From: a virus
IMG/VR virus record: IMGVR_UViG_3300044729_004302
Location: 1-22,009 of that record
DNA length: 22,009 nt
Direction: 5' to 3' (one strand)
Shown: one piece after another, positions 334 to 14,833 of the stretch
How the letters are laid out: every line of letters begins with the position of its first letter
Numbering within the stretch: the first letter of the stretch is position 1
The notes under the pieces: generated by a model
Seen by the model: only the letters and a program-made list of their open reading frames with translations
Told to the model about the DNA's origin: nothing
Databases searched by the model: none
Made by a program: the position numbers and the translations under genes

Positions 334-575
334 GCTGTCTCCTCTCTGCAGGCCTCCGAGCATCTGGCCTGCCCTTGCACCCCAAAAAAGTCATCTCCGC
401 ACCACTCGCACTCTTGACGCACTGTTTCACGAGGGGGCAGCCCCTTGCGCCTCTGTGCCTGCCGAGTGCGGTGCTCACTACGGCAGACCCAGTCGCAGAT
501 CTCTGCGAGGGCATAGGGCGTGTCAAAGGGGCGGCCGCAGATCTTGCATGCTACCCTGATGCGATCTCCCCTCAT
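330..575 (-). CDS. Small two-module zinc protein
   Basis: An 81-residue protein made almost entirely of two zinc modules: C10-x2-C13-x13-C27-x3-C31 and C56-x2-C59-x12-C72-x3-C76, the second with the typical CxxCGxxF start. A basic linker joins them. The start overlaps the preceding gene's stop by four bases, and the stop overlaps the next start by four, so it sits in a translationally coupled chain. There is no signal peptide or membrane segment. It is a paralogue of the neighbouring zinc-module genes. Function unknown; nucleic-acid binding is a guess from the fold and charge. Confidence 0.7.
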   Translation of the reverse strand: MRGDRIRVACKICGRPFDTPYALAEICDWVCRSEHRTRQAQRRKGLPPRETVRQECEWCGDDFFGVQGQARCSEACREETA

Positions 576-1081: not shown

Positions 1082-1082
1082 G

Positions 1083-1796
1083 CTACGCCCTACCTGTCAG
1101 GAGCTCCTGAAAGATCCCATCTCGGCATTTGTCAACCTTGATGAGACCAATCTCTACAGAGGCAAGCTCTGCATTGAGGTCTTTTTTGCGAGCCTCAAGA
1201 GTACGCTTTTCCATGTCTTTTGCATTGAGCTGATGGAGCAGGTCCTCTACGCGCTCTCTGGTCAGCTCTCTATGCGCTGCCAAAGCCTGCACAGGCAGCG
1301 TCATCTGTACTGCCTTGGTCACCTCGTCTTTGGGTTGCAGCTGCTGCTGCAGGCACTCGATGACCCTCATGGCATAGCCTGCATCTGGATAGTCGCCATT
1401 GATCATCGGTAGTCTGTGACCATCCTCGGATGACCCGAGAGGCATCCTCTCCTGCAGCGCCTTGAGTGCGTCTGCCATCGAGATGCACTGGGCATATCCA
1501 GAGCGCAGGCCCTTGCTGCCTTTGGGCAGATCAACAGTGGCGCTCAAAATATTGTGCTGATGTGAGATGTGGACAGTGACCCGACTTGCAAGCTGGCGCA
1601 CGATGCTGCATGTGCGCGGATCCTGTGCCTTATAGTGTGGCAGATAGAGCCCATTAACCAAGTGCTGTGTGATCAGCAGTGGCTCTGCAATACCCTGCGC
1701 ATGCACAAGCACAAGCAATTTGTTGGTGCCCTCTAGGCGCACTGCAATGATAGGGCGAGATGATTGGATTGTGTCTGGTCTCAGTGTCTTTGTCAT
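1083..1796 (-). CDS. Uncharacterised protein with C-terminal coiled coil
   Basis: I do not recognise the family. The start at 1796 is chosen over an upstream in-frame ATG because AGGAG lies eight bases before it and the longer form would overlap the preceding gene deeply; this gives 237 residues. The N-terminal two thirds look globular and beta-rich, with few cysteines. The last ~60 residues are highly charged and helical (ELTRERVEDLLHQLNAKD, then an EKRTLEARKK region), consistent with a coiled coil for oligomerisation. It is the only long gene in this stretch without zinc modules. A phage early accessory protein is the most that can be said. Confidence 0.6.
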   Translation of the reverse strand: MTKTLRPDTIQSSRPIIAVRLEGTNKLLVLVHAQGIAEPLLITQHLVNGLYLPHYKAQDPRTCSIVRQLASRVTVHISHQHNILSATVDLPKGSKGLRSGYAQCISMADALKALQERMPLGSSEDGHRLPMINGDYPDAGYAMRVIECLQQQLQPKDEVTKAVQMTLPVQALAAHRELTRERVEDLLHQLNAKDMEKRTLEARKKDLNAELASVEIGLIKVDKCRDGIFQELLTGRA

Positions 1797-1818
1797 GACT
1801 CTTGCTCCTTGTGTTTTG

Positions 1819-2448
1819 TCAGGCCTTATAGGCGGCCCTTGCCTTGCCTGCACATGACAGGCTGCATGTGGTGCGACTCGTGCCATCCATGGGGAGTGGC
1901 CCAAGACAGACCTTGCACACAGTGCGATGCTGCACTGTGCCTTGCTGCTTGCGCACAGAGTACGACTCACTCCCCTTGCGCTTGATGATGGCGTCGATGT
2001 CAGGGTCTTGTGCAGCAGCGTCGATCTTGCTCTGCCGTGTGCGCTCTCGAGAGCGCAGGTAGCTACACTCCGGAGAGCAGGTCACTGCGCGCATGCGGTG
2101 ACCTGACGCCTCAAAGAGGGCTCCGCAGACCAAGCAGGTGCGCACTCTGGGTGTGGCTCTCGACAGCGTGCCGTACCAGGTGGCCTTGGTCTGCCGATGC
2201 CTCTCCTGCTTGCACTCGTCAGAGCATGCGCCCTGTGACCCATGCGACGGCACAAAGGCCTTGCCGCACGCAGCACAGGTGCGCTCTGTCTTGAGAGGCT
2301 TGACCTTTGCTCGGTATGCCCTTGCCCTGTCTCTGGCGGCAGCCTCGCAGCATCCTGCGGTGCAGTACTTGCCATTGAGTGCAAGAGGCCGATAGTGCCG
2401 GCCACACCATGCACAGTCTCTGGGCTGTGGTTGCTTGACAAATCGCAT
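1819..2448 (-). CDS. Four-module zinc protein
   Basis: A 209-residue protein with four modules: C12-x2-C15-x13-C29-x3-C33, C58-x2-C61-x13-C75-x3-C79, C105-x2-C108-x15-C124-x3-C128 and C178-x2-C181-x13-C195-x3-C199. Linkers are Arg/Lys rich. The start at 2448 is set by a TGATG junction with the upstream gene's stop; a longer in-frame form exists but would overlap that gene. It is the largest member of the local zinc-module family. The fold is probably treble-clef or FCS/MYM-like; the role is unknown. The near-regular module spacing makes a modular binding protein plausible. Confidence 0.72.
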   Translation of the reverse strand: MRFVKQPQPRDCAWCGRHYRPLALNGKYCTAGCCEAAARDRARAYRAKVKPLKTERTCAACGKAFVPSHGSQGACSDECKQERHRQTKATWYGTLSRATPRVRTCLVCGALFEASGHRMRAVTCSPECSYLRSRERTRQSKIDAAAQDPDIDAIIKRKGSESYSVRKQQGTVQHRTVCKVCLGPLPMDGTSRTTCSLSCAGKARAAYKA

Positions 2449-2975
2449 CAGATGACCCCTCTGCATGCTAGCTTGTGCAGTGCCATCAGGTGCTCGATCT
2501 TGACCCTCTTGGGGAGCTCGGTGCGCCATAGAAAAAGTAGCGCATACGAGACTCCGAGGTACTCTGCGAGCGACTTGAGGGTGCCGATCCCACCCTTGCC
2601 ATAGGCGTCAAGGGCACGCTGTAGCAGAGCAAGGCCCTCCTCTGGAGTCTCTGGCAGGCTGCATAGGTAGTCTATCAGATGGCTAGCAGATGCTGCTGCT
2701 GCGCCGAGCGAGACCAGCTCGCCCTGCTGCGCATGCTTGACCTTGGTGAGGAGGGTGCTGTGCTTGACCTCTAGCAGCTGCGCAGCAATGCTAGTGCCGT
2801 GGCCCATGGCTGCTAGTCTCTCAACGATGCGGCAGAGCATGTCTGTCTCTGCTTGCAGCTGCCTCTTGTCGGGCTCTGGCCTCGGAGGCCGCAGGCTCTT
2901 GATATGTGCATCGACGACGGGATCTGCAGGCTGTGGCGCAGCCTCCACTGTTAGTGTGGCCTTGATAGTCATCAT
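2448..2975 (-). CDS. Probable helix-turn-helix DNA-binding protein
   Basis: A 175-residue protein without cysteine modules. The C-terminal third reads as a Cro/YdaS-like helix-turn-helix (LKSLAEYLGVSYALLFLW followed by a basic segment ending in an ALHKL helix). A second possible HTH lies mid-protein around GHGTSIAAQLLEVKHSTL. The first ~50 residues are Pro-rich and probably flexible. Two adjacent ATGs (2975 and 2972) lie behind a GAGGTG site; 2975 gives a four-base overlap with the upstream stop and 2972 a one-base overlap. It may be a regulator of the leftward block, but no operator can be assigned. Confidence 0.6.
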   Translation of the reverse strand: MMTIKATLTVEAAPQPADPVVDAHIKSLRPPRPEPDKRQLQAETDMLCRIVERLAAMGHGTSIAAQLLEVKHSTLLTKVKHAQQGELVSLGAAAASASHLIDYLCSLPETPEEGLALLQRALDAYGKGGIGTLKSLAEYLGVSYALLFLWRTELPKRVKIEHLMALHKLACRGVI

Positions 2976-3373
2976 GGCTGCACCTCGATGGTGTGCGCCT
3001 TGCTGCGTGCCCACTCGCACTCTTGGCTGTGCAGGGCCTGGATCTCCTGCCAGCCTTGGGAGGCCTCCACATCCCAAGGCACTCTGGCATCACAGTAGAT
3101 GCAGAGTGTCACGCCATCATCGACACAGAGTGGATAAGGGTGCTCTGCATCATCCTCGCACTCTGCCCAGCCTGCCTGCTCGCAGCACCAGTCAAGCAGG
3201 GCATCTGCCTCGCTGTCGAGCAGCGAGATCGCCTGCTTGCCATCCAAGATGGGGTGCAGTGCGAGAGGCACTCGCTTGCGAGGCATAGCCTGCACTTTGG
3301 TCAGCCAAGCCTCTCCGGTGTGTAGGTGGTCGATATAGATCAGGGTCTGTCTGTGGTCTGTGGTCATGGTCAT
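2972..3373 (-). CDS. Small acidic zinc-finger-like phage protein
   Basis: A 133-residue protein with a C-terminal C2HC site, C91-x2-C94 and H115-x3-C119 (CIYC...HSQEC), a form common in small phage proteins where the His-Cys pair follows a Trp/Asp-rich loop. Additional cysteines (CC at 63-64, C72, C83) precede it. The start at 3373 has AGGAG five bases upstream. That start also coincides with the stop expected for the restored reading frame of the interrupted gene upstream (ATGA overlap). Function unknown. Confidence 0.62.
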   Translation of the reverse strand: MTMTTDHRQTLIYIDHLHTGEAWLTKVQAMPRKRVPLALHPILDGKQAISLLDSEADALLDWCCEQAGWAECEDDAEHPYPLCVDDGVTLCIYCDARVPWDVEASQGWQEIQALHSQECEWARSKAHTIEVQP

Positions 3374-3547
3374 GATCTCTCCTGCTTGGCCCTGCAGTCA
3401 TCGCAGGGTGTGGTTTTTAGGTGCCTTGTAAGTGCCTGTATTGCCTGCTTTTTCTGCCCCCCCCCCCCCCTCCAGCTTGACTAGGAGAAAAGAGCTCATG
3501 TCGTGCAGTCTCTGATGTCCGCACGCGTGCTTGATGCGCTTGGTCAC
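3370..3547 (-). pseudogene. Small CGH/CxxC zinc-ribbon gene split at a G14 tract
   Basis: A GTG start at 3547 overlaps the stop of the upstream gene (GTGA) and has GGAG five bases before it. The frame encodes a CGHQ motif at residues 9-12 and then enters a run of 14 G (plus-strand C, 3457-3470). In the frame as given it ends at 3398 after 49 residues of unrelated tail. With one G fewer, the frame continues without stop for 29 more codons to a second motif TPCDDCRAKQ. It then ends at 3370 in an ATGA overlap with the next start. The pair CGH...C-x2-C is typical of very small phage zinc ribbons. The intact form would be 58 residues. The interruption may be phase variation, mixed tract length, or a homopolymer sequencing error. 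Confidence 0.6.
3457..3470. repeat. 14-base C/G homopolymer
   Basis: Fourteen consecutive C on the plus strand, 14 G in the coding sense of the leftward gene that spans it. It is by far the longest homopolymer noticed in the window. It sits exactly where the reading frame of that small zinc-ribbon gene must shift by one base to stay open. Confidence 0.95.
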
Positions 3548-3723
3548 TCGCACTCCATGGCAGCGATCTGCCTCTGCCTGCTAGTGTCTAGGTCTATCTG
3601 CTCAGCACAAGCTGCGCACACAGGAGCTGGGTATAGATATCTATAGTGCTGCCCCTCGATCTCCCTTGTGTCTATAGCCTCTGTGGTCAGTCCGTATCTG
3701 CTGCATAGGGTGCATGTGGTCAT
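3544..3723 (-). CDS. Small zinc-ribbon protein
   Basis: A 59-residue protein with two Cys pairs, C4-x2-C7 and C36-x2-C39, the classic two-knuckle zinc ribbon. The start at 3723 is preferred to an in-frame ATG six codons upstream because AAGG lies seven bases before it and nothing resembling a ribosome binding site precedes the longer form. Its stop overlaps the GTG start of the next small zinc gene (GTGA). Function unknown. Confidence 0.6.
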   Translation of the reverse strand: MTTCTLCSRYGLTTEAIDTREIEGQHYRYLYPAPVCAACAEQIDLDTSRQRQIAAMECE

Positions 3724-3756
3724 GACGTGCCTTGCTCTCATTTTTGTTATTTACGG

Positions 3757-3806
3757 GGCTTTGGGGTCGTGAGGCGACCCTGACTATGGGTCGCCTCTAA
3801 AAAGCC
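3757..3806 (-). other. Intergenic hairpin, not a canonical terminator
   Basis: A perfect 10-bp inverted repeat, GAGGCGACCC (3771-3780) and GGGTCGCCTC (3788-3797) with a 7-base loop, is flanked by a second pairing of GGCTTT (3757-3762) with AAAGCC (3801-3806). It fills the only gap in this part of the leftward operon. No U-run follows it on the leftward transcript, so an intrinsic terminator is unlikely; RNA processing, pausing or protection of an mRNA end is possible. Confidence 0.6.
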
Positions 3807-3814
3807 TGCTGTGC

Positions 3815-4000
3815 CTACGACAGCATGCTGTACTCATCACGAGTCTTGATGTACGCCTCTGCGGTCTTGATGATGACATCTGCAGGCAGACCGCTTGCCT
3901 GCAGAGTCTCGACGATGAGCAGGTAGCTCTGCCACTCTGCCGCATCCAGATGCGCTCCCAAGATCGAGAGCTCCATCACCAGCTGTATGTCTGTCATCAT
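3815..4000 (-). CDS. Small hypothetical phage protein
   Basis: A 61-residue protein, largely helical in appearance (LVMELSILGAHLDAAEW, then an ADVIIKTAEAYIKT segment), with no cysteines, signal peptide or membrane segment. The start at 4000 has an excellent GGGAGGTG ribosome binding site and overlaps the stop of the upstream 57-residue gene by four bases. No family is recognised. Followed by the hairpin at 3757-3806. Confidence 0.6.
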   Translation of the reverse strand: MMTDIQLVMELSILGAHLDAAEWQSYLLIVETLQASGLPADVIIKTAEAYIKTRDEYSMLS

Positions 4001-4170
4001 AGGACACCTCCCTTGAGCCAGTAGTACATGCGGCTCTCTGCGTGCGCTTGGCGCTCTGCCTCAAGCTCTGCCAGCCACTCCTCGCGTGTCATGCAGTCTG
4101 TGGGCTCTGACTCCCAGTCTGCCTCGATCTCTCGCTCTTGCTCTCTCTCCAGGTATGCATACATGCTCAT
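3997..4170 (-). CDS. 57-residue charged small protein
   Basis: Short gene starting at ATG 4170 with AAGGAG ten bases upstream and ending at 3997 in an ATGA overlap with the next start. The product is rich in Glu and Arg (MSMYAYLEREQEREIEAD at the N-terminus; later REEWLAELEAERQAHAES) and ends in a short aromatic/hydrophobic tail. It probably forms one long helix. The ribosome binding site, the coupled stop/start and the fit into the operon make it a real gene despite its size. Function unknown. The 73 bases upstream (4171-4243) hold nothing recognisable. Confidence 0.6.
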   Translation of the reverse strand: MSMYAYLEREQEREIEADWESEPTDCMTREEWLAELEAERQAHAESRMYYWLKGGVL

Positions 4171-4243
4171 GACTCTGACTCTCCTTGATGGGCTGTGGTG
4201 ATGCAGGAGGCAGGCGGCCCAAGTCTGCCTCCGTGTTAAGGTC

Positions 4244-5317
4244 TTACCACTCGCAGTTGGCGTAGGTGGCTCTCTCAGCCAACACTAAGAGGCGATCGCT
4301 TGTGTCTTGGAGCTGGCGCTTGATGGACTGCATGGCGTCTCTGGCATCACGCACCAAGCGCACGTGCTTGCAGTGTCCATGGGCCTTGTGGCCTGGACAC
4401 GTGCAGGTGCCCTCGTAGGCGCGCACTGTGTGTAGCCCGGTGCTGCCATTGATCTTGTGGATACCAAGGGCGCTGTTGCCACCCACAGAGGCGTACACTG
4501 CGCTGTAGGCCTCACGGAGCTCGTCGATCTTGGCGTTGAGTTTGGCGGCCTTGGTCTGACGTCGCTTGTCGAGAGACATGGCGATCTTATCTTGGAGGGT
4601 GCGCAGCAGCTCTGGATCCTGTGCGAGAGTGGTGCACCATGGATAGTGAGCGATCTCTGTGGCCAAACTCTTGGTGCGTCGGCAGCAGTCGCTGCAGCGC
4701 ACTGTGAGTCGGTAGAGCTCCAAGGTCTGTGCAGGTGCTGCGTCGGAGACAGTCTCTGTGGCAGTCTCGATAGCAGCCTCGGAGGCGGCGATCTCTGCAG
4801 CCTCTGCGGTCTCGGCTGCCTCTACCTCTGCCTCTGCAGCTGCGAGCTCTGCCTCGCTTGGATCTGCATCGTTGAGCATGTCGATCCAGTCTTGGTCACA
4901 GCAATGACGGTGAGATACTCCGTAGGTCTTGCGGCTCTGACGACGTGCAGGCTTGGCCTCAACAACCTCAAGTGCGTCTGCGGCAAAGACATCAACCTCA
5001 ACAACCTCAGCCTTGGGAGCCTCAACAACCTCAGCCTTGGGAGCCTCAACAACCTCAGCCTTGGGAGCCTCTGGCAGTGGGATCACAACACCAGTCTTGC
5101 GCTCCCACTGTGCGTTGTCGCGGACCCAGCCCATGCCGTCTGCCTTGGTGTAGCAGCAGCCGTCGTCATGGCGATTTTGCCACTTGGTGCCACCAGTGCG
5201 GCTGTCAACAACTTGCTCGGCAAGGCCGTTGCCGCGGCGGACAGTGCAGCCACAGCGATAGCAGCGGCCCTCGAACTTGTTGATGATTGTGCGGATGATG
5301 TTGGTCTCGGTTGTCAT
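4244..5317 (-). CDS. SWIM-type zinc-finger protein with internal repeats
   Basis: A 357-residue protein starting at 5317, behind AGAGGAG. Domains in order: an N-terminal zinc ribbon (C19-x2-C22, with H50/C54 as likely partners); a flexible region with three identical copies of APKAEVVE (residues 84-107); a long Ala/Glu-rich stretch (about 155-195); a C208-x2-C211-x12-H224-x3-C228 site; and a SWIM zinc finger C305-x-C307-x8-C316-x-H318. SWIM fingers in other proteins bind DNA or partner proteins. It is the first gene behind the strong leftward promoter at 5360-5388, so it is probably highly expressed. It could be an abundant DNA-associated early protein; no exact family is recognised. Confidence 0.65.
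   Translation of the reverse strand: MTTETNIIRTIINKFEGRCYRCGCTVRRGNGLAEQVVDSRTGGTKWQNRHDDGCCYTKADGMGWVRDNAQWERKTGVVIPLPEAPKAEVVEAPKAEVVEAPKAEVVEVDVFAADALEVVEAKPARRQSRKTYGVSHRHCCDQDWIDMLNDADPSEAELAAAEAEVEAAETAEAAEIAASEAAIETATETVSDAAPAQTLELYRLTVRCSDCCRRTKSLATEIAHYPWCTTLAQDPELLRTLQDKIAMSLDKRRQTKAAKLNAKIDELREAYSAVYASVGGNSALGIHKINGSTGLHTVRAYEGTCTCPGHKAHGHCKHVRLVRDARDAMQSIKRQLQDTSDRLLVLAERATYANCEW
4998..5069. repeat. Three perfect 24-bp tandem repeats
   Basis: Three uninterrupted identical 24-bp units (4998-5021, 5022-5045, 5046-5069) encode the repeated APKAEVVE peptide of the SWIM protein. Identity at the DNA level, including synonymous positions, points to recent expansion by slippage or recombination. 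There are no spacers, so this is not a CRISPR array. Confidence 0.9.
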
Positions 5318-5359
5318 GTTGTCTCCTCTGCAGCCGTCTCGTCGCTGCGTCATGAGATA

Positions 5360-5388
5360 TATATAGGGGGTCTCTCACATAATGTCAA
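5360..5388 (-). promoter_or_regulatory. Strong sigma-70-like leftward promoter
   Basis: On the minus strand TTGACA (5388-5383) is separated by 17 bases from TATATA (5365-5360), a near-consensus sigma-70 promoter. It lies in an AT-rich gap just upstream of the SWIM-protein gene starting at 5317 and would start transcription near 5353. It should drive the whole leftward zinc-protein block independently of the cas operon behind it. Confidence 0.75.
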
Positions 5389-5428
5389 ACTTTTTTTTTG
5401 CATATCTAAAAATATTTTTTACATTATG
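5378..5428. promoter_or_regulatory. Inverted repeat over the promoter, possible operator
   Basis: CATAATGT (5378-5385) and its exact complement ACATTATG (5421-5428) flank an A/T-rich stretch with runs of T. The left arm covers part of the -35 element of the leftward promoter. Such a placement would suit a dimeric repressor or looping operator. No repressor can be assigned. Confidence 0.4.
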
Positions 5429-5453
5429 CGCAAAGCCTTATGCCAAGCGGCTC

Positions 5454-6266
5454 TCAGGCGTGTCGCGAGACGGTGGGGATGATCTTGGTGAGAGAGGAGT
5501 AGAGGCTGGGGTAGTAGTGTCGGAGCCAAGCGACGGCTCCTCGGTGTGCGTGGGAGGTGCTGACCCACCACGACTTGCGGATGCGAGAGGGATCGTCGCT
5601 GTCCATGAGTGCGCAGCACTTGTACATGGGCAGCAGCTCGATGTCTCTTGCTGCGCAGTAGGCATAGACGTCGATGCCCTGCCAGTCACCAAGCGGCGTG
5701 CAGACCCACTGCCCCGCTTTTTTGCGGTACAGCTTGCCGTGGGTAGCGCGGTTTTTGGCGCGATGCTTGCTCTCGCCAGCGCGCAGCCCGAGAAATGCCC
5801 CGTCGTACTGCTCGCTAAACGCCTCCACGACCCCATAAAAGCAGGCTTTGGAGAGGCCCGCGGCTCGGCTGTGCATGTTGGTGTTGCCGTGCAGCTCTTC
5901 AGCATGCTCTCGGAGCCACTGCTGCGGAGACACTGGCGGGCGCAGGATGTGCAGATCCCACCCATACTGCGCAGCCTGCTGCACCAAGTGCGCCTCCTCG
6001 CCCGGGAAATCGAGGTCATCTTTCTCGCTACCCACGGGCAGGGATAGGCCCATCTCCGTGCACACGAGGTGCGTCATGGCGGTAGAGTCTTTGCCGCCCG
6101 ACGACATCACGCACCACCGAGGAGCTGCTGCCAGTGCCTGCTCGATGTCGCGCTTGGCCATCTCAATACGCCTCTTGTGCGCAATGGTACGCGACCAAGC
6201 AAGGGCCTCAGCCATCCACTCCCCCCAACGACGGAGATCCTCTGGTCGCAAAATCGGCTCTACCAT
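5454..6266 (-). CDS. CysH-like PP-loop protein of the type IV-B module
   Basis: A 270-residue member of the PAPS-reductase/CysH PP-loop family. It has the ATP-binding loop SSGGKDSTA at residues 55-63, a LGLRAGES motif at 159-166, a TPLGDWQGIDVYAY segment typical of the C-terminal half (about 190-203), and a Cys pair at 217-218. Relatives in sulfur metabolism reduce activated sulfate, and DndC-type relatives act in DNA phosphorothioation. CysH-like proteins of unknown role accompany type IV-B CRISPR-Cas loci. It overlaps the end of csf3 by seven bases with GGAG five bases before the start, and it is the last gene of the leftward cas operon. Enzymatic substrate not deducible; involvement in the complex is inferred from linkage. 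Confidence 0.85.
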   Translation of the reverse strand: MVEPILRPEDLRRWGEWMAEALAWSRTIAHKRRIEMAKRDIEQALAAAPRWCVMSSGGKDSTAMTHLVCTEMGLSLPVGSEKDDLDFPGEEAHLVQQAAQYGWDLHILRPPVSPQQWLREHAEELHGNTNMHSRAAGLSKACFYGVVEAFSEQYDGAFLGLRAGESKHRAKNRATHGKLYRKKAGQWVCTPLGDWQGIDVYAYCAARDIELLPMYKCCALMDSDDPSRIRKSWWVSTSHAHRGAVAWLRHYYPSLYSSLTKIIPTVSRHA

Positions 6267-6919
6267 TGTGGCTCCGGTAGGGCCACCCAGTCGCGCCCCT
6301 GCTGCATCCAGTACGGATAGGTTAATCTGCCATCAGCAATGTATGCATCCTCGGCAAGGCCTGGCGTGTCAGTGGGCAGCGGCCGCAGTGGGTAGCCCCC
6401 TCGCAGCACAGGATAGCCTGCCCACGTCTCGCACTGCTGCACAGTCCACTCTGCCACCTCGCCCTTGCCGACGGCAGCACGCTTGCCTAGATGCGTAACC
6501 ATGCGCAGCAGCCGCTCGATCTCGTCTGCATCACCAACACACCACCACGTCAGCAGATCCCCCTTGACCCAGCCTGTCGCAATGGGCAAGCGCCATGGCT
6601 TGCTGAGCCCTGCGCTTGTCTCGATGCGTACCTTGCTGCTCCCAAACAGCTGTGCTGCAGCTACTGGGGACGGGCGATTGACCCAAGTGCTCTCTCTCTC
6701 CTCCCACTCGTACTCGGCTGCGGAGGCTAGGTGGTACCGCCCACACTCGCTTTTGGCCACAGGGATGACGATCTCTGTGGGCTGCAGTGTCGCGACAAAT
6801 CCTGCGTCTGCGCCCTGCTCTCTGGCCACCACAGAGGCCAAGAGCGAGTCGAGCATCAGGGGCAGGCCAGGCAGGGAGATCGCTGTCTTGATGCGTGCTT
6901 GCACGCGTAGCGGGGTCAT
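6260..6919 (-). CDS. csf3: Csf3, Cas5-like subunit of type IV complex
   Basis: A 219-residue RAMP-fold protein. Its N-terminus reads as the first RAMP strand followed by a helix (LRVQARIKTAISL...LMLDSLLASVVA). The middle carries VIPVAKSE, and a glycine-rich loop LGKRAAVGKGEV sits at 144-155, followed by an EWTV strand. These are the features of Csf3, which takes the Cas5 place and caps the guide-RNA 5' end in type IV complexes. The start overlaps the csf2 stop by four bases. Length is in the usual range. The partners are Csf2, Csf1 and the Cas11-like protein from the same operon. Confidence 0.82.
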   Translation of the reverse strand: MTPLRVQARIKTAISLPGLPLMLDSLLASVVAREQGADAGFVATLQPTEIVIPVAKSECGRYHLASAAEYEWEERESTWVNRPSPVAAAQLFGSSKVRIETSAGLSKPWRLPIATGWVKGDLLTWWCVGDADEIERLLRMVTHLGKRAAVGKGEVAEWTVQQCETWAGYPVLRGGYPLRPLPTDTPGLAEDAYIADGRLTYPYWMQQGRDWVALPEPQW

Positions 6920-7911
6920 GCGTTGACGTCCCGTAAAAATGCCTTGATCTCTGCAGCCTGCTCTTTGACGTGGCGGAAAAATACGCTACCTACCTCGCCT
7001 CTCACCACCATGTCACCAGGCATCGGCACAGCCTCTTGGCGGGCGATCTCCCATCGGTAGTCAAAAGCCTTGAGACAGCGCAGGCCCCCGTGCCCAGAGC
7101 CCCGCTTGCCACCCACGCTGGCGTTGGCGAGGAAGGTCGCGATCATGACATTGAGGGTATCCTCATCGAGCTCGGTCTGCACGAGCGCCGAGACCTGCCA
7201 AAAGAAGAGTGATCCCTGCACGATGCGCTCAAAACTGCGTGGCATCATGGTGCTCTTGCTGTCGTCGCGGAGCTTGGCGTCGTCGATCTCGTGCGCCGTC
7301 TCCGATTTTTTGAGGCGCCCCTCGAGCTGCTTGCGCGAGTCGTCAGACAGCAAGAGCCTCTTGGCGGGGTCTAGTGTCGGGTCCATGCGCACTCTCTGTG
7401 TCTCCTCGACGTAGGCTCGGTGCGTCTCGATCTGCTGTCCCTCCTCACGCAGCCAGCCCATCACCTCGGGGGGCAGGTAGTGCAGAGTCTCCTCGCAGAT
7501 GAGCTGCGCCTGTGAGACGGAGAGCTTGCCTGGTACGCACCGATTGCCCACGCAGCCACCCAAGAGGGAGAGCTGCGGGAAGACCTTGACCATGCGGTGA
7601 TAGTCGTCGATCTTGACCACGTCTCCACCTGTGCCTCTGCCAGTCAGCATGCCGCCGGCAAAGAGCAGGCGCAGCGCGCCCTCGGAGAGATCAGCTCCGA
7701 TCTCGGCTGCATGGATGTACGAGAGGGCGATGGCCTCTCGCAGCTGATGGCGCATGGTGTCGCCAGTGAGGTAGGGGATCCGCTTAAATGTGCCGTCCTT
7801 CATCCGCACTTTGGATCGCTGTATGAGAGAGACATTGCCTTGGGTCTCGCTGTGGTGTGCTATGGGCTCGCGAGCCTCGAGCACAAAGCCGTACTTGATC
7901 TGCTTCATCAT
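6916..7911 (-). CDS. csf2: Csf2, Cas7-like backbone subunit
   Basis: A 331-residue protein with hallmarks of Csf2: an N-terminal RAMP strand with a conserved loop (GFVLEAREPIAHHSETQGN, residues 8-26), IPYLTGDTMRHQLRE at 45-59, LFAGGMLTGRGTGGD at about 83-97, and a late glycine-rich GGKRGSGHGGL at 267-277. Csf2 polymerises along guide RNA to form the filament of type IV effector complexes. Two ATGs (7911 and 7908) are possible; 7911 overlaps the cas11-like stop by four bases. This is the strongest single marker for a type IV CRISPR-Cas locus here. Confidence 0.88.
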   Translation of the reverse strand: MMKQIKYGFVLEAREPIAHHSETQGNVSLIQRSKVRMKDGTFKRIPYLTGDTMRHQLREAIALSYIHAAEIGADLSEGALRLLFAGGMLTGRGTGGDVVKIDDYHRMVKVFPQLSLLGGCVGNRCVPGKLSVSQAQLICEETLHYLPPEVMGWLREEGQQIETHRAYVEETQRVRMDPTLDPAKRLLLSDDSRKQLEGRLKKSETAHEIDDAKLRDDSKSTMMPRSFERIVQGSLFFWQVSALVQTELDEDTLNVMIATFLANASVGGKRGSGHGGLRCLKAFDYRWEIARQEAVPMPGDMVVRGEVGSVFFRHVKEQAAEIKAFLRDVNA

Positions 7912-8267
7912 CCTTTTACGATCACCTTTCTCTCGTCTGCCTCAGCACGTAGTGTCGCCATCAAAAAACCATTCTCGCGGTCTACCATCTCCAGCCACTC
8001 ATCGACGTCTCTTTGGCTTGCTAGGTGGCTCTGCAAGACCAAGGCTGCCCCAGAGACCCAGCTGTCCGGTGTGTCGATCTGCAGTGTGCGACACATCGAT
8101 GTCAGCCACTCCTCGAGCCCCGCGGATGTCCGTGCTGCTGCTCGGCTGCGGGTCGCTAGCTGCTCCCAGTGTTTGAGTGGGCTGCAGCTCGGGGTCTTGA
8201 GATACTGCGCTCTCAGGGCTCCGAGCAGCTTGATCGTCGCCTGTCTTTTTGCCTCTACTTTTTCCAT
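7908..8267 (-). CDS. cas11: Cas11-like small subunit
   Basis: A 119-residue, mostly helical protein starting MEKVEAKRQATIKLLGAL. Position between csf1 and csf2, size and helical character fit the small subunit Cas11 of type IV-B. The start at 8267 is supported by AAAAGGAGG nine bases upstream; that site lies inside the csf1 reading frame. Longer in-frame forms exist but extend deeper into csf1 without a better ribosome binding site. It overlaps csf1 by 269 bases in a different frame and csf2 by four bases. Cas11 proteins are poorly conserved, so the call leans on context. Confidence 0.68.
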   Translation of the reverse strand: MEKVEAKRQATIKLLGALRAQYLKTPSCSPLKHWEQLATRSRAAARTSAGLEEWLTSMCRTLQIDTPDSWVSGAALVLQSHLASQRDVDEWLEMVDRENGFLMATLRAEADERKVIVKG

Positions 8268-9021
8268 CCTTTTTGGCCTCCTTTTCCGCGGCCATACGTG
8301 CCGCGACCCTCTCCTCATCACGCTGCGCCAGCCAGATGGCAAGAGCAAAAAACGACCCGCCTCTCTGGCTTGACCATCTAGCCTCAAACTGCCTGATTGC
8401 CTCTCTGCATCGCAGGATGCTGCCTGCCTGATAGTCTCCCGTCTGTATCTCCTCCTTGGTTGCGCCTGCTGTCAGCGTCTCTGTCATGTCATCAACCATT
8501 GACCAGTCTCCGAGGCGCACGACTGTATCGTCAAAGAGCACGGTGCCATTGGTTGTGCGGCACACTGGCGCCCATGGGATCACGTGCTTTTGCCCGGTAT
8601 CAGCGACAGCACACCACCACATGCCTTGCTTTGGCTTGCGCAGCCAAGCAAGCAACACAGGCTTGTCTCCCTTGCTTGCGTTGATGTACTCAACACTGCC
8701 GTCAGGTCTCTGCCACCACCCATGGCTATAGTTGCGATAGTTGCCGCCATAGCTCTTGCCCTCCTTGGGTGGTCTACCAAGCACTGGAGAGACTCGGCTG
8801 CAGATGTGTACGCAGGGCTCACAGACCCACTGTGACTGCGGAGACCTGACCCTGTTTTGCGACGTAAAATTGCCTGGCATCCACTTGGCTACCAAGATGC
8901 CATTGCCCTGCCATTGACCGCCGCAGACCCAGCAGGCAAAGGGATCGGCAATCTTGCTGCACTCTGCCTGACTAGGGCTGCCAAGCGCTGTCTGCCACAG
9001 CAGTTGTGTCGCACTATGCAT
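7999..9021 (-). CDS. csf1: Csf1, zinc-binding Cas8-like subunit
   Basis: A 340-residue protein with a Csf1-type zinc finger: C30-x2-C33 and C67-x2-C70 around a KWMPGNFTSQNRVRSPQS segment. A core rich in Trp, Tyr and Gly follows. Csf1 is the Cas8-like subunit of type IV complexes. The start at 9021 overlaps the cas6-like stop by eight bases and follows GAGGGAG; a longer upstream form would overlap that gene more. The conserved part ends near residue 250. The remaining ~89 residues are Ser/Pro/Asp-rich, look disordered and overprint cas11. A stop in the -1 frame at 8257-8255 falls just inside the cas11 start, so a frameshift, real or sequencing-derived, would give a more usual ~253-residue Csf1. 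Confidence 0.82.
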   Translation of the reverse strand: MHSATQLLWQTALGSPSQAECSKIADPFACWVCGGQWQGNGILVAKWMPGNFTSQNRVRSPQSQWVCEPCVHICSRVSPVLGRPPKEGKSYGGNYRNYSHGWWQRPDGSVEYINASKGDKPVLLAWLRKPKQGMWWCAVADTGQKHVIPWAPVCRTTNGTVLFDDTVVRLGDWSMVDDMTETLTAGATKEEIQTGDYQAGSILRCREAIRQFEARWSSQRGGSFFALAIWLAQRDEERVAARMAAEKEAKKDGKSRGKKTGDDQAARSPESAVSQDPELQPTQTLGAASDPQPSSSTDIRGARGVADIDVSHTADRHTGQLGLWGSLGLAEPPSKPKRRR

Positions 9022-9685
9022 GCTCCCTCTCGATCTTGATGCGGCCAAAGCCATAGGCTCTGAGGCCTCCGATGCCGACGAGCTCTGCGCAGCGCAGCAC
9101 CCAAAGCGCCATCGGAGAGCAGTCAAGCACCATGCCCCCTACCCACCCGATGACTGCTCCTCGCTCTGCAGTGCCTCTCGAGACGTGACCTCCTATCACA
9201 GTGCGAGTGCCGATGACTGCTGACGAGACCATCTCAAGACCGCCCATGCGCTCACAGTCTACCCCAAGACCTAGGCCATCAGACACGCGCTGGATGGCTC
9301 TGGTCATGTGCCCGAGGTCTGGTGCGACGCAGCTGCGAGTGTGGTCTTTGGCTGTCATCACAACGGGTGTCAGAGTGCTCAGCACGACGCGGCCTCTTGC
9401 TGCGGAGATCGGCGGCAGCTCTAGCTCTCTGATGCCCACGGGCGAGAGACTCACTGGGCGGCCATTGGCGAGCACTGGCCACGAGGCTCTGTCTGCCATC
9501 CACACAGGGCGGGCGCCCTGTATGATGACGTGCCAGTCTCCGTCGTGATGATGCAGCGCAAAGAGGGGGATCTGCGAGGTGTGATCTTGGCCGTGCAGTG
9601 TCGAGATGATGCCGTGCATCATGGTCGCGTCACGGTGCCATGGGTGGGTGAGTCTGGGGGTGATCTTGATGCGGGCTTGCCACAT
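9014..9685 (-). CDS. Cas6-like RAMP protein, possible guide-RNA nuclease
   Basis: A 223-residue protein with RAMP features. It opens with strand ARIKITPRL and a His-rich loop (H14, H17, H24, H31). A C-terminal glycine-rich motif GIGGLRAYGFGRI at 204-216, followed by a basic strand, is typical of Cas6 and Csf5. Cas6 enzymes cut CRISPR repeats to release guide RNAs, often with a histidine. The start at 9685 (AGGAG five bases upstream) is preferred over 9718, which overlaps the upstream stop by four bases but lacks a ribosome binding site and adds 11 residues before the first strand. It directly precedes csf1. Type IV-B loci normally lack cas6, so it is unusual. It could instead be another RAMP subunit without cleavage activity. 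Confidence 0.65.
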   Translation of the reverse strand: MWQARIKITPRLTHPWHRDATMMHGIISTLHGQDHTSQIPLFALHHHDGDWHVIIQGARPVWMADRASWPVLANGRPVSLSPVGIRELELPPISAARGRVVLSTLTPVVMTAKDHTRSCVAPDLGHMTRAIQRVSDGLGLGVDCERMGGLEMVSSAVIGTRTVIGGHVSRGTAERGAVIGWVGGMVLDCSPMALWVLRCAELVGIGGLRAYGFGRIKIEREHA

Positions 9686-9714
9686 GCGCTCTCCTGTCAC
9701 GGAGAGCGGTGGTA

Positions 9715-10116
9715 TCATGCTTTGGAGAGGGAATCAATCCTCGGGGTCATCTTTTTTATATCCTCGATGACAGCGGGGGGAGCGGGCCTCGTGCCCATCA
9801 CATAGTGCTGCAGTGTCGCCTGAGGCAGACAGAGCAGCTTGGCCAGCCCTCGCAGGGAGAGGCCAAGCTGACCTTGCACCAGGGAGATCGTGCGCACCTG
9901 CTCGATGATGTGTGCTGCAGGGCGAGGCTCTCTCGACCTCACCTCGGTCTGCACCCACTGGGCTATCATGGGGAGATCGCACACCTTGACCCACCACCCC
10001 TTGGATGGCGGCTCTTTGTGCGCTGGGAGCTCCCCGGAGAGCACGCCCCTGTAGAGCACATGGTAGGGCGTGCGGAGCTTGTGGGCGGCTTTGGTGAGGC
10101 GGAGAGAGTCACTCAT
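9715..10116 (-). CDS. Protein with two possible DNA-binding segments
   Basis: A 133-residue basic protein. Residues 1-55 resemble a MerR/excisionase-type winged HTH (LRLTKAAHKLRTPYHVLYRG, then a Trp-rich strand). Residues about 84-120 form a Cro/CI-type HTH (LSLRGLAKLLCLPQATLQHY). The pairing suggests a sequence-specific regulator, perhaps of its own operon from the divergent region. No clear ribosome binding site precedes the start at 10116, seven bases from the upstream stop. It lies between the ssDNA-binding-like gene and cas6-like, so it is co-transcribed with the cas genes. An accessory role in the complex cannot be excluded. Confidence 0.6.
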   Translation of the reverse strand: MSDSLRLTKAAHKLRTPYHVLYRGVLSGELPAHKEPPSKGWWVKVCDLPMIAQWVQTEVRSREPRPAAHIIEQVRTISLVQGQLGLSLRGLAKLLCLPQATLQHYVMGTRPAPPAVIEDIKKMTPRIDSLSKA

Positions 10117-10122
10117 GGTGGG

Positions 10123-10728
10123 CTAAAATGGGATCTCGTCAGGCTCTGCGGAGGGCACAAAGCCCTTGTCTTGCGCCTTGATGCCAACAGCTGCAGTGGC
10201 TGCACGAGCTGCACCAGAGGGCGCAGCAAAGGCGCCCTTGACACGCTCTGTCATGGCTGCGCCCTGCTGCATGGCGATGCGCTCCATCAGGCGGCCCTTG
10301 GTCGCCTCGGCGTCGTAAGAGCCTGTGGCCGTGACCTTTTTCTTCGGCTTGAGGATCTTGTCGACAGAGGCGTACGACATGCCCTCGCGCTCAAAGTGGG
10401 TGACTAGGAGCTGGCAGCACTTGCCTACGAGCTGCTCGAGGTCAAAGCCTCGCATCTCCTCTGGAGACAGCTCGACTCCGCCACGCCATGCCTTGAGGTC
10501 CTGGGCAAGCTTGGCCTTCTCATGCAAACTGGCTGCGTACCTCTTGCTGAGGTGGTACACCATGCCCTCATCACTGCGCACCTCCCACAGGATCTGCAGC
10601 TGGTGCTTGTCGCCATAGGCTGTTGGCACTGTACCAAGGTCAATGACATCGACGCAGATGGCGTCGTAGAGCCCCTCGGGGCATGGGGTGCGGTTGCTGC
10701 TGCTCTCTCGTCTCAAAATAAGTGGCAT
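10123..10728 (-). CDS. Phage ssDNA-binding-like protein
   Basis: A 201-residue protein starting at 10728 behind GAGG. The N-terminal two thirds carry a pattern common in phage replication-operon proteins of the ssDNA-binding/DUF669 type: GLYDAICVDVIDLG, a WEV strand, YHLSKRYAASLHEKAKLAQD, then GFDLEQLVGK and YASVDKILKP. An Ala/Gly-rich linker leads to the C-terminal tip AEPDEIPF, which closely matches the acidic DDDIPF tail by which bacterial SSB recruits replication and repair proteins. It is the first gene of the leftward operon and lies opposite the replication genes. Role inferred: coating ssDNA during phage replication. Confidence 0.65.
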   Translation of the reverse strand: MPLILRRESSSNRTPCPEGLYDAICVDVIDLGTVPTAYGDKHQLQILWEVRSDEGMVYHLSKRYAASLHEKAKLAQDLKAWRGGVELSPEEMRGFDLEQLVGKCCQLLVTHFEREGMSYASVDKILKPKKKVTATGSYDAEATKGRLMERIAMQQGAAMTERVKGAFAAPSGAARAATAAVGIKAQDKGFVPSAEPDEIPF

Positions 10729-10846
10729 GGATACATCCTCTCTGCTGCCGTCTCTGGGCAGTGGAGTAGGGCTATCACACTTGTGAGGGGATTGCAATAG
10801 CAAAAATAATTTTGACAATTGATTGATGATCAGGTAGGACAAAAAA
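10729..10846. promoter_or_regulatory. Divergent promoter region with palindrome
   Basis: This gap separates the leftward cas/SSB operon from the rightward replication operon. It holds TCACA-CT-TGTGA (10775-10786), an operator-like inverted repeat. An AT-rich stretch (10799-10830) includes a perfect rightward -35 TTGACA at 10812-10817, but the base pairs 17 further on read TAGGAC, a poor -10. No convincing leftward -35/-10 pair was found, so activator dependence or a phage-specific promoter is possible. The two-segment DNA-binding protein encoded nearby is a candidate regulator. Confidence 0.45.
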
Positions 10847-10874
10847 ACCTGCAGCGCGGTCAGGCGCTGCAGGT
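10841..10874 (-). terminator. Leftward intrinsic terminator
   Basis: Perfect 11-bp GC-rich inverted repeat (ACCTGCAGCGC at 10847-10857 and its complement at 10864-10874) with a 6-base loop. It is followed on the minus strand by a run of seven T. This is a textbook rho-independent terminator for leftward transcription, yet no leftward gene lies to its right. It would stop antisense transcripts entering the cas operon. On the rightward transcript the same hairpin falls just upstream of the first ribosome binding site. Confidence 0.8.
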
Positions 10875-10891
10875 CTCACACGGAGGATGAT

Positions 10892-11047
10892 ATGGAGACC
10901 CTACTAGCACACCCCACAGCCAATGACAAGACCCCAAAGACAAGCACAGCCAAAGGCATCAAGTGGGGCGCACAGCGCGAGCCCGGCAAGCCACTGCGTG
11001 TCTATGCTCTGCTCATCAAGCCAAGCGCACCAAAGGCGGGCAAGTGA
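10892..11047 (+). CDS. 51-residue small protein, first rightward gene
   Basis: Starts at ATG 10892 behind a strong GGAGGA site and ends at 11047 in a TGATG junction with the RusA-like gene. The product is short, Lys/Thr/Pro-rich and probably disordered (METLLAHPTANDKTPKTSTA at the N-terminus). The ribosome binding site and translational coupling support it as a real gene. Function unknown; a small early regulator or a leader for the replication operon is possible. Confidence 0.6.
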   Translation: METLLAHPTANDKTPKTSTAKGIKWGAQREPGKPLRVYALLIKPSAPKAGK

Positions 11048-11418
11048 TGGTACAGGTGACGATCCCCATGCGCTTGGTCTCGGAGGCCAACAGCCGAGAG
11101 CACTGGCGCGTCGTAGCCAAGCGTAAAAAGCTGCAGCGTCGTGCAGTGTGGCTGGCGCTGCACTGCACCAAGCAGCTGCCGATCCCGGTACCATGCACCG
11201 TGACCTTATGCAGATGGTCTCCGAGGCAGCTTGATACTGACAACCTCTCCTCGGCCTTCAAGGCCGTGCGTGATGAGGTGGCAGCGTGGCTTGGCATCGA
11301 CGACCGCAGCCCACTGGTGCAGTGGGTGTATGAGCAGCAGCCAGTCAAGCTCTTGCCACAGTCTGTGAGGGTGGGCGATCATATGATATCTATCACCATC
11401 ACAGGCACCCCATCATGA
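11047..11418 (+). CDS. RusA-like Holliday junction resolvase
   Basis: A 123-residue protein carrying the RusA signature: an N-terminal segment with ANSREHWRVVAKRKK (about residues 14-28), then D63-x-D65-N66-L, D76 and D85-D86 in a LDTDNLSSAFKAVRDEV...GIDDRSP arrangement. The acidic residues bind the metal used to cut four-way DNA junctions. Length is typical for phage RusA. The start is coupled to the 51-residue gene (TGATG) and the stop to the exonuclease gene (ATGA). Likely resolves recombination or replication intermediates before packaging. Confidence 0.82.
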   Translation: MVQVTIPMRLVSEANSREHWRVVAKRKKLQRRAVWLALHCTKQLPIPVPCTVTLCRWSPRQLDTDNLSSAFKAVRDEVAAWLGIDDRSPLVQWVYEQQPVKLLPQSVRVGDHMISITITGTPS

Positions 11419-12020
11419 CCAAGCCAAGGTACCGCTCCGCACAGCCAGACGACACATACTGCTACACTGCATGGGTGAGATACGAGAGCAAGATCCCTCT
11501 GGAGATGCTGCTCGACTCACCCTTGTGTTTTATCGACACCGAGACGACAGGGCTTGGTCACGATGACCGCATCATCGAGATCGCACTCTGTCGGGTCGAG
11601 AGGGGATCTCTCGATAGGTGGATGACGTCTCTGGTCGACCCGGTGTGGGCAGTGCTGTCTCCCAAGGCCAGCGAGGTATCAGGCATCACCAAAGACATGC
11701 TTGCAGAGGCTCCACTCTTTGAGAGCCTCGCAGAGGAGATCGCTGCCATGTGCTCCGGAGCCTACATGGTGGCGCACAACGCAGCATTTGACCGTCGCAT
11801 GCTAGAGGCCAGCTTTGCCGATGTCGGCATGCAACTGCAGCCCAAGGGTTGGGTCTGCACCCAGCAGCTCTCCAGAGAGCATGTCACGGGTCTCAAGTCG
11901 TACAGCCTGCAGTCGCTCGTCTCGAGCCTCTGCCTACCACAGCATACAGCTCACAGAGCAGAGGGTGATGTGCGTACCCTTATGGCTCTGTGGGCACACA
12001 TCACACGAGGATATAGATGA
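11415..12020 (+). CDS. DnaQ-like 3'-5' exonuclease
   Basis: A 201-residue DEDDh exonuclease of the DNA polymerase III epsilon type. ExoI is FIDTETTGLG with D41 and E43; ExoII is AHNAAFDRRML with D126; ExoIII is HRAEGD with H180 and D185. All catalytic residues are present. The first ~35 residues precede the domain and are not conserved in an obvious way. It sits between the resolvase and the primase-helicase with four-base overlaps at both ends. Likely role is proofreading, end trimming or nucleotide scavenging during phage replication. Confidence 0.85.
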   Translation: MTKPRYRSAQPDDTYCYTAWVRYESKIPLEMLLDSPLCFIDTETTGLGHDDRIIEIALCRVERGSLDRWMTSLVDPVWAVLSPKASEVSGITKDMLAEAPLFESLAEEIAAMCSGAYMVAHNAAFDRRMLEASFADVGMQLQPKGWVCTQQLSREHVTGLKSYSLQSLVSSLCLPQHTAHRAEGDVRTLMALWAHITRGYR

Positions 12021-14833
12021 CCATCGATATAGACATCTCACACGCTGCCGCAGAGTGGGCAGCAAGAGGCCTCAAGGTGCTGCCCTTGCACTGGCCTATC
12101 TCAAGCACCCAGTGCAGCTGCAGCAAGATCGACTGTAAGAGTATCGGCAAGCACCCCATCTCAGAGCTCACCAGACATGGTCTCAAGGATGCCACAAGAG
12201 ACCCAAGGCAGATCTCCGCTTGGTGGCAAATCTACCCAGAGGCCAATGTCGCTGTCGTGACAGGCGGGGGGATCGTCGTGCTCGACGAGGATGTGCCGGG
12301 GTCTCTGGGCACCTTTGCCGCAGGGCGAGATCTGCCAAGGACCTTTGCCGTCTCGACAGGCCGTGGCATGCATCACTACTACCGCATCGACGGTCCGGTC
12401 AAAAACAGAGCTGGCCTCGCACCAGGATTGGATGTCAGAGGAGACAATGGCTACGTGGTCGCGCCTCCATCCATCCACTACACAGGCATCCTCTATGAGG
12501 TGGCAGATGACTCGGAGATCGCTCCGTGCCCTGCTTGGCTGGTCGATGTGCTGCAGCCCAAGGCGCAGGCGATCCCTCAGGCTGCCATGCGCACAGGGCT
12601 AGTCATCAGAGGCGTCGTGTCAAGCAGCGAGCAGGCGCGGCTGCAGGTCTATGTCGACAGAGCCATCTCGCAAAACTGCCAGATGATCTCGACCACCGCA
12701 GAGGGTGGGCGAAACCACACCCTCAATGACATGGCTTTTCGCTGCGGCACTTTGCTCTCGGCCCCATGGGCCATGGGCCTTGTGCCCTCTCGCAGCGAGG
12801 TGGAGAGCAGGCTACTGCAGGCTGCTCTGGCCTCTGGTCTCACCGAGCGCGAGTCTGTGCGTACCATCAAGAGCGGCCTCGACAGCGGCATCAAGCGCCC
12901 TCGCATCGCACCTCCTCAAGACAGGCAGAGCCTCGCAGCCTACGTCAAGCACACAGCCATGATGGAGACAGCACGCGAGCAAGGGCAGGAGACAAGCAGT
13001 GCACCGACCATGACAGAGCAGGAGGTGGTCGAGGTGCGCAAAGAGATCTTTGGGGCGCTTGCTCTCGATCCCAAGACCGGCAAGCCATGCCGCACCCCAA
13101 GTAACCTCTATCGCATCCTGCAGGCCGAGCCTCTCTTGCAGGGCTGCATCGTGTACAATGCCTTTGGCCGCACCGTCTGCTCTCTCCGTGAGCCTCCAGC
13201 ACCCCAAGGGCTTGGCTGTGCTGAGCCGTTTTACAGGGGCAAGCCATGGTCTGATACCGACAGCAGCAGGCTCCGAGTGTGGCTGCACGACACCTATGGT
13301 GTCACGTGGTCTCTCGATGACATCCACAGCACCATCGATGCAGTGGCAGACTCTCGGCACTGGCACCCCGTAAAGGAGCGCCTAGAGGCCCTAGAGTGGC
13401 ACGGAGAGCCCTTGCTCGACCGATGGCTAGTCGACTACCTAGGTGCCGATGACACGCCCTATACAAGGGCAGTCTCGCGCAAGTGGCTCATCTCCGCAGT
13501 GGCTAGGGTGTATGAGCCAGGGTGCAAGGCAGAGTGCATGCTAGTGCTAGAGGGCGAGCAGGGGATCGGCAAGAGCACTGCCATCAGAGTACTCGCTCTC
13601 GATGGCGCGTGGTTTAGCGACTCGGAGCTCTCTCTTGACGACCCTGCGCAGAGCGCGCAGGCTCTCCATGGCAAGCTCATCGTCGAGGTGCCAGAGCTCG
13701 CTGCGCTATCCAAGAGCCAGGTCGAGACCATCAAGGCCTACCTCTCCAGGCAGACCGACCACTACCGAGCACCCTACGACCGCAGACCACAGAGCATCCC
13801 ACGCCAGAGCGTCTTTGCCGGCAGCACCAATGACACCCAGTATCTCAAGGACAGCACAGGCAATCGCCGCTTTTGGCCCATCAGATGCTCTCCAGCGTCA
13901 GGGCGTGCAGACATCCAAGGGCTCCAAGCAGTCTCCGAGCAGCTGTGGGCAGAGGCTCGTCAGGCGTACCTCACTGGCGAGACATGGTGGCTCGATGACA
14001 CCGACCACGAGGCGCTAGCCATGGCAAAAGATGTGCAAGAGTCGCGCACTGAGGATGACCCTTGGGTCGATATCCTGCGCTCTCGCCTCCCACAAGGCCT
14101 GCCATACTACATCACCGATGACGTGGCAGAGGCTCTTGGCATCGACCTAGCCAAGCTCGACCCTCGCACAGCCTCGCGCTTTGCCCGTGTACTCAAGGTC
14201 CTAGGGCTCACCAAGCAGCGCATCAGAGTCGACGGACAGAGGCGATGGGTCTACTGTCCTACCCTACCAGAGGATGTCCTACCCTTGTCCCACCCTACCG
14301 ACGTTGATAGGGTAGGCCAAGCTAACCACACGATATCACACGATGTCCCAGAGGTGGCCTACCCTGTCCTACCCTCTCCCTATAAGAGAGAGAGAGAGAA
14401 AGAGGAAGTAGTATACCGCGCGCGCGAGGACAACGGTGGGCAGGGTGGTCAGGGTAGGATCTTGGACGGTAAGGGTAGGACAGGGGTGGACAGTGATGGT
14501 AAGCCCACGCAATCACAAGACAATGGGCGGCCTACCCTAAGGGTGGTCCAAGGGTGGACCGGGGGTAGGACAGAGGGTGGGCAGGGTAGGACAGAGGCCC
14601 AAGAGGGGTATGTGGATGGCGAAGAGGACCCTGATGTCCGGTATGCACGAGAGGAGAGAGAGGCGATACAGGCAGAGGCAGCCTATGGGGAGCAGGTGGC
14701 TGCACCTGCACCTACCCCACCTCAGCAAAAAAAGAGCCCCTATCCTCCAGAGGATGTCATCAGATACCGCAGATGGCATGAGATCAATGGCCTTCCGATC
14801 CCCCCAAAGGGCGGCAAGGGGAGCGGCAAGTAG
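12017..14833 (+). CDS. Primase-polymerase / VirE-type helicase fusion
   Basis: A 938-residue replication protein. An N-terminal archaeo-eukaryotic prim-pol domain (about 1-190) has zinc ligands C33, C35, C40 and H45 (CSCSKIDCKSIGKHP), metal-binding D90-E-D92, and STGRGMHHYY at 113-122. A middle region (about 190-440) probably holds the primase C-terminal and linker domains. The VirE/DUF5906-like P-loop helicase has Walker A GEQGIGKS at 513-520, Walker B-like LIVEVPEL near 554-561, and a NDTQYLKDSTGNRRFWPI sensor region. The C-terminal ~190 residues are low complexity and overlap a dense DNA motif cluster. The protein should prime and unwind at the phage origin. Start coupled by ATGA to the exonuclease gene. 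Confidence 0.88.
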   Translation: MTIDIDISHAAAEWAARGLKVLPLHWPISSTQCSCSKIDCKSIGKHPISELTRHGLKDATRDPRQISAWWQIYPEANVAVVTGGGIVVLDEDVPGSLGTFAAGRDLPRTFAVSTGRGMHHYYRIDGPVKNRAGLAPGLDVRGDNGYVVAPPSIHYTGILYEVADDSEIAPCPAWLVDVLQPKAQAIPQAAMRTGLVIRGVVSSSEQARLQVYVDRAISQNCQMISTTAEGGRNHTLNDMAFRCGTLLSAPWAMGLVPSRSEVESRLLQAALASGLTERESVRTIKSGLDSGIKRPRIAPPQDRQSLAAYVKHTAMMETAREQGQETSSAPTMTEQEVVEVRKEIFGALALDPKTGKPCRTPSNLYRILQAEPLLQGCIVYNAFGRTVCSLREPPAPQGLGCAEPFYRGKPWSDTDSSRLRVWLHDTYGVTWSLDDIHSTIDAVADSRHWHPVKERLEALEWHGEPLLDRWLVDYLGADDTPYTRAVSRKWLISAVARVYEPGCKAECMLVLEGEQGIGKSTAIRVLALDGAWFSDSELSLDDPAQSAQALHGKLIVEVPELAALSKSQVETIKAYLSRQTDHYRAPYDRRPQSIPRQSVFAGSTNDTQYLKDSTGNRRFWPIRCSPASGRADIQGLQAVSEQLWAEARQAYLTGETWWLDDTDHEALAMAKDVQESRTEDDPWVDILRSRLPQGLPYYITDDVAEALGIDLAKLDPRTASRFARVLKVLGLTKQRIRVDGQRRWVYCPTLPEDVLPLSHPTDVDRVGQANHTISHDVPEVAYPVLPSPYKREREKEEVVYRAREDNGGQGGQGRILDGKGRTGVDSDGKPTQSQDNGRPTLRVVQGWTGGRTEGGQGRTEAQEGYVDGEEDPDVRYAREEREAIQAEAAYGEQVAAPAPTPPQQKKSPYPPEDVIRYRRWHEINGLPIPPKGGKGSGK
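14258..14590. repeat. Iteron-like 8-bp motif cluster, possible origin
   Basis: CCTACCCT occurs at 14258, 14278, 14358, 14368 and 14531. Its complement AGGGTAGG occurs at 14309, 14451, 14472 and 14583, with a one-base variant at 14562. The copies fall in all three codon phases of the primase gene, so they are not explained by a protein repeat. The cluster also contains an (AG)n tract near 14385-14400 and an alternating CG run near 14416-14428. One further copy was noticed at 17800 in the terminase gene. Position in a primase gene suits an origin or initiator-binding array; this is inference. Confidence 0.55.

Follow-up and report, generated by a model that had tools for sequence, protein, structure and literature searches.

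A probable iteron-type replication origin nested in the reading frame of its putative initiator on a phage contig

We propose that a cluster of short repeats near the 3' end of a gene for a PrimPol–VapE protein, carried by a viral contig of 22,009 nucleotides (IMG/VR record IMGVR_UViG_3300044729_004302, positions 1 to 22,009; hereafter ‘the window’), is very probably the replication origin of the phage; that is, an iteron origin of the type found in phage-inducible chromosomal islands (PICIs) and Staphylococcus aureus pathogenicity islands (SaPIs), bound by the gene's own initiator. A candidate origin had been suggested here by an earlier reading of the DNA letters alone (the sequence-only reading), and that suggestion is now supported by the position of the array relative to a predicted winged helix, by replication of this arrangement in an independent set of loci, by a two-armed facing layout and by turnover of the motif along with the protein.

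The array holds nine exact copies of CCTACCCT/AGGGTAGG within 14258-14590, distributed over both strands (14258+, 14278+, 14309-, 14358+, 14368+, 14451-, 14472-, 14531+ and 14583-) and occupying codon phases 0, 1 and 2, with adjacent copies frequently 9-12 bp apart; the full motif, as an extended consensus, is TGTCCTACCCT. Where the sequence-only reading had counted a single variant beside the nine, we find three one-mismatch copies in the interval (14289+, 14562- and 14574-), and two more lie slightly past the array at 14711 and 14739. Its remark that the 22-kb window has just one other exact copy is correct (17800-). The comparison with shuffled sequence that it had called for was made on 1000 dinucleotide shuffles of 14200-14760, counting the most frequent two-strand 8-mer in each: no 8-mer of any sequence exceeded 4 copies, against the 9 observed. 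Because the copies fall on both strands and in three codon phases, within a frame that is maintained for its protein too, the words appear to be selected as DNA, as had been claimed; the recurrence of such clusters elsewhere with different words points the same way.

Twelve sites in all, six to each arm and mostly facing one another, are arranged around a 75-bp spacer. The (AG)n and (CG)n tracts that had been noted near the copies are real and sit in this gap, as a purine (GA)n tract at 14384-14408, counted more narrowly as 14386-14399, followed by a (CG)5 tract at 14417-14426; no others of such length occur in the window, and the left half of the spacer is rich in purine and in A.

The host gene had been described as a primase gene, which is true in so far as a primase-polymerase (PrimPol) domain is present (PF09250), but incomplete, since this domain is fused to an initiator helicase of VapE type (PF05272). 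An AlphaFold model of residues 346-755, for which the alignment was built from locus proteins only, has a mean predicted local distance difference test (pLDDT) score of 90.5 and closes with three helices followed by a two-stranded wing (model residues 337-403). The closest solved relative is PriRep1 with double-stranded DNA (7pds), both by sequence (E ~1e-58) and by fold, where it is the best Foldseek match to the whole model (1.5e-32). The start of the array at 14258 coincides with the end of the winged helix (~14260), and on this model the part of the protein likely to bind the motif is the C-terminal winged helix, encoded immediately ahead of the array.

The placement is not peculiar to the window. 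In a first set of 32 non-redundant VapE loci, for which a 1-kb interval placed where the VapE domain ends was compared with the whole locus, the strongest two-strand 8-mer cluster lay at the domain end in 15, where 10% were expected (P=1.8e-7). The same picture emerged more strongly from an independent set of 58 additional non-redundant loci, all below 80% identity to the first set, in which the strongest cluster followed closely on the 3' side of the VapE domain in 34/58 (9% expected, P=3e-21); arrays with at least five two-strand copies stood at the domain end in 28 of these loci and elsewhere in three, all 3' of the VapE gene. Facing arms were evident in the pooled first set (left 78+/41-, right 24+/57-; Fisher P=8e-7) and again in the independent set, both as mirror symmetry (85 vs 70.4 +/- 3.0 under orientation shuffles) and as a difference in arm orientation (16.3 vs 9.6 +/- 1.2). 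Facing arms and mirror symmetry thus replicate. Alternating purine-pyrimidine tracts are enriched in both sets, and in the independent set the spacers exceed their loci in AT content (P=5e-9). Complete phage genomes also carry VapE-associated arrays. The motif is particular to each phage, and in more distant phages the arrays just 3' of the VapE gene consist of other words, such as GGTCACCCC in Marinobacter phage PS3, TACTGCAACA in Paenibacillus phage Bob and GTTGCCTA in Streptococcus phage Javan405.

A stricter arm ‘grammar’ (+1-3, -, +2-3 / -2-3, +, -1-3), drawn up post hoc, described 6/20 arrays including that of the window (0.064 expected) and only 1/31 in the independent set (0.018 expected); it is not general, and we have rejected it as such. 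One branch of loci (L175, L177, L179, L199, L216 and L219) has arrays just 3' of the VapE stop codon built from near-palindromic words of the type TGTNNACA/TGNNNACA, with paired copies ~9 bp apart, a spacer of ~95-105 bp and an arm pattern unlike that of the window. Runs of 32-48 bp in which purines and pyrimidines alternate (potential Z-DNA) occur in the array spacers of L009, L014 and L021 and are the longest of any interval in those loci. Displaced two-strand arrays were seen at L011:9108-9337, L040:10483-10776, L045:10054-10219 and L193:8452-8807.

The only close relative found, L001, is 63% identical over the whole protein, shares the order of domains and keeps the frame open at the corresponding position; a search of a genome collection returned no relative. 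L001 carries a cluster at the same place, with the motif changed to CCTCCCC/GGGGAGG: five of the six copies in its 14.7 kb lie there, a count reached by 0/2000 shuffles. This array escaped our automatic k-mer test because its motif has only two letters, and L001 was tested separately. Conservation of the motif in relatives, a check that the sequence-only reading had recommended, therefore has a divided answer, in that the word itself changes but the cluster stays in place. For the same reason, loss of the motif in close relatives, which had been offered as grounds for refutation, is the wrong test, as a change of motif at a fixed place is what a co-evolving initiator–iteron pair predicts. Among phages, similarity of motif follows similarity of protein: the Mantel r is 0.42 when the C-terminal part is compared and 0.34 when the helicase core is, a difference that is small, both correlations being partly shared descent. 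A doublet of the window's motif was also seen near the end of another viral contig, L002, in which no VapE gene was recognised.

A number of observations weigh against the interpretation as an origin. Taken as a whole the spacer of the window has an AT fraction of 0.43 against 0.41 for the window, and the mirror pattern of this array alone is not significant (P=0.07). The suggested check of GC skew does yield a switch at the array in the window, where the cumulative minimum (14380) falls inside it and is suggestive, but relatives lack it: the shift goes in the same direction at 10/20 arrays and so is not general, for which reason we have dropped GC skew as general evidence. A sizeable share of VapE loci had no clear cluster at the sensitivity used, a few have the cluster 1-4 kb further 3' instead of directly after the VapE gene, and the contig itself is a 22-kb fragment.

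Most relatives have a stop codon ahead of the array or right where it begins. In the window the array is placed after the DNA-binding domain, yet not after the gene; the host frame stays open across it to a stop codon at 14833, 3' of the array, and a frame likewise continues through the array in L001, L015 and L010. There is no in-frame stop over 579 nt of the window or 519 nt of L001, 0/5000 shuffles of either sequence stay open, and the other two plus-strand frames have 3-14 stops at the array in both; the open frame in the window and L001 is not a product of chance. Beyond the array the two proteins share the end peptide RYxRWHExxGLPIP, and of the 12 residues identical between them in a 20-residue stretch surrounding it, 8 are written with different codons. 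Since no stop codon precedes the presumed origin in the lineage of the window, the iterons also encode a low-complexity linker to this conserved C-terminal peptide. A more tentative suggestion, which we consider possible but do not favour, is that the origin became coding in this lineage, such that transcription and translation of the initiator tail cross it and couple synthesis of the initiator to the state of the origin.

Might the repeats serve something other than initiation? They could be an operator array, bound by a phage regulator of the downstream genes or of the initiator's own expression: iterons can act in autoregulation, repeats on two strands are typical of operators, and a regulatory role would likewise select DNA over protein. 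Such a role does not, however, account well for a placement tied to the winged-helix end of the initiator in dozens of phages whose downstream genes differ, nor for an array that lies within a coding region and close to its 3' end, and two facing arms around a spacer of 70-110 bp suit an origin better; we regard an operator as improbable. A function as priming sites, with the motif marking where PrimPol starts primers on single strands and not a duplex site for the winged helix, seems more improbable still, given that arrays of this kind also occur after VapE proteins whose N-terminal part is different (for example L003 and L004) and that the motif is tracked slightly better by C-terminal similarity than by the helicase core; priming at the motif could nonetheless be an added role.

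Least credible of all is that the repeats reflect a low-complexity tail, or repeat expansion, without a function as DNA. The tail of the initiator is indeed rich in G, R, Q and P, and slippage can produce (AG)n and (CG)n tracts, but neither copies on both strands and in three phases nor the recurrence of different words at the same place in unrelated phages would be expected of it, and on phase and strand we rejected an explanation as protein repeats. What a true protein repeat looks like can be seen in the same window at 4996-5071 (open reading frame 4244-5353), where, in contrast to the array, three perfect 28-nt direct repeats of period 24 lie on one strand and in phase (APKAEVVE).

Returning to the array as an origin, we propose a likely scheme for its use, by analogy with SaPI Rep, Cch2 of the staphylococcal cassette chromosome mec (SCCmec) and PICI origins. 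The C-terminal winged helix would bind the TGTCCTACCCT iterons in both facing arms, upon which the initiator would assemble, probably as two hexamers; the spacer, which contains the purine and alternating CG tracts, would then melt, allowing the VapE motor to unwind outward and the PrimPol domain to prime, with synthesis presumably completed by host or other enzymes. A simple position rule for VapE-type phages follows from the survey, namely to seek a two-strand word in two facing arms directly after the winged helix, and would allow origins and initiator specificity to be predicted for many phages, link the origins of phages with those of PICI satellites, and supply many natural winged-helix/iteron pairs from which a recognition code might be read. 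To these the window adds a case of an origin that is also protein-coding.

Neighbouring genes encode RusA-like, exonuclease, large terminase, Mu-type portal and cement proteins, which mark the contig as phage or prophage. It also carries, on the minus strand at 5454-9718, an effector operon of a type IV CRISPR (clustered regularly interspaced short palindromic repeats)-Cas system, that recalls type IV-B loci. A repeat search of 1-12000 showed no CRISPR array, and none of the type IV CRISPR-Cas or CysH-like genes occurs in the DNA examined of a relative, L089.

Table 1. Features of the window, with the evidence or layout on which each assignment draws
Feature	Position	Strand	Evidence or layout
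Initiator gene: PrimPol, VapE-type helicase, winged helix and C-terminal tail, 938 aa	12017..14833	+	Open reading frame; Pfam; phrog DNA helicase/primase families
PrimPol domain	12047..12538	+	Pfam PF09250, residues 11-174, E=4.5e-32
VapE-like AAA+ helicase domain	13382..14044	+	Pfam PF05272, residues 456-676, E=3.6e-77
C-terminal winged helix, putative origin-binding domain	14060..14260	+	AlphaFold pLDDT 85-88; three helices, then two strands
Left arm of iterons	14255..14375		Motif positions; orientations + + + - + +
Central spacer, 75 bp, putative strand-opening site	14376..14450		(GA)n and (CG)5 tracts
Right arm of iterons	14451..14593		Motif positions; orientations - - + - - -
Protein tail past the array, with conserved peptide RYxRWHExxGLPIP at 14762-14803	14594..14830	+	Alignment with L001
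CysH-like phosphoadenosine phosphosulfate (PAPS) reductase, adjacent to the type IV genes	5454-6266	-	
Csf3/Cas5	6260-6919	-	
Csf2/Cas7	6916-7911	-	
Cas11-like	7908-8387	-	
Csf1/Cas8	within 7999-9126	-	
Weak Cas6-like protein	9014-9718	-	

Initiators of SaPI, PICI and SCCmec elements have iteron origins, shown or proposed, directly 3' of their genes (PMC7581432, PMC6092414), and SaPI Rep and Cch2 bind their repeats through a C-terminal domain, Rep apparently as two hexamers (PMC7581432). The PICI/SaPI module shares with the window an initiator helicase of VapE/PriRep1 type with a C-terminal DNA-binding domain, immediately after which two sets of iterons flank a spacer (PMC6092414, PMC7581432). 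PICIs are satellites that lack a structural and packaging gene set of their own, whereas the contig encodes a large terminase, a Mu-type portal and a cement protein, so that as a whole element it does not qualify as one; it differs further in the fusion of the initiator to PrimPol, in an array that lies inside the reading frame, in the iteron sequence, and in a spacer of purine and CG tracts that is not clearly AT-rich. Earlier accounts of such origins in single phages may exist, for example from Streptococcus thermophilus, although we found none in the open-access literature.

SCCmec Cch2, a proposed self-loading helicase, resembles what is proposed for the protein of the window in that it uses its C-terminal domain to bind direct repeats shortly beyond the gene, at a putative origin (PMC7581432); unlike that protein, Cch2 belongs to the D5/Primase_Cterm family and not to VapE, and its iterons number just three and lie past the stop codon. 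The pRN1 protein ORF904 likewise combines PrimPol, helicase and C-terminal winged helix in one protein, with an origin 3' of the gene (PMC4234260), but that origin is a 100-bp stem-loop without iterons. It is phage lambda that offers the parallel for nesting, ori-lambda being an iteron origin within the coding sequence of its own initiator, gene O (PMC6022878). Both the PICI-type organisation and the nesting of an origin in its initiator were thus already known, and what is unusual here is mainly the frame that runs on through the origin to a conserved C-terminal peptide. In lambda, the O protein is neither helicase nor primase, and ori-lambda lies in the middle of a small gene, with iterons longer than those of the window.
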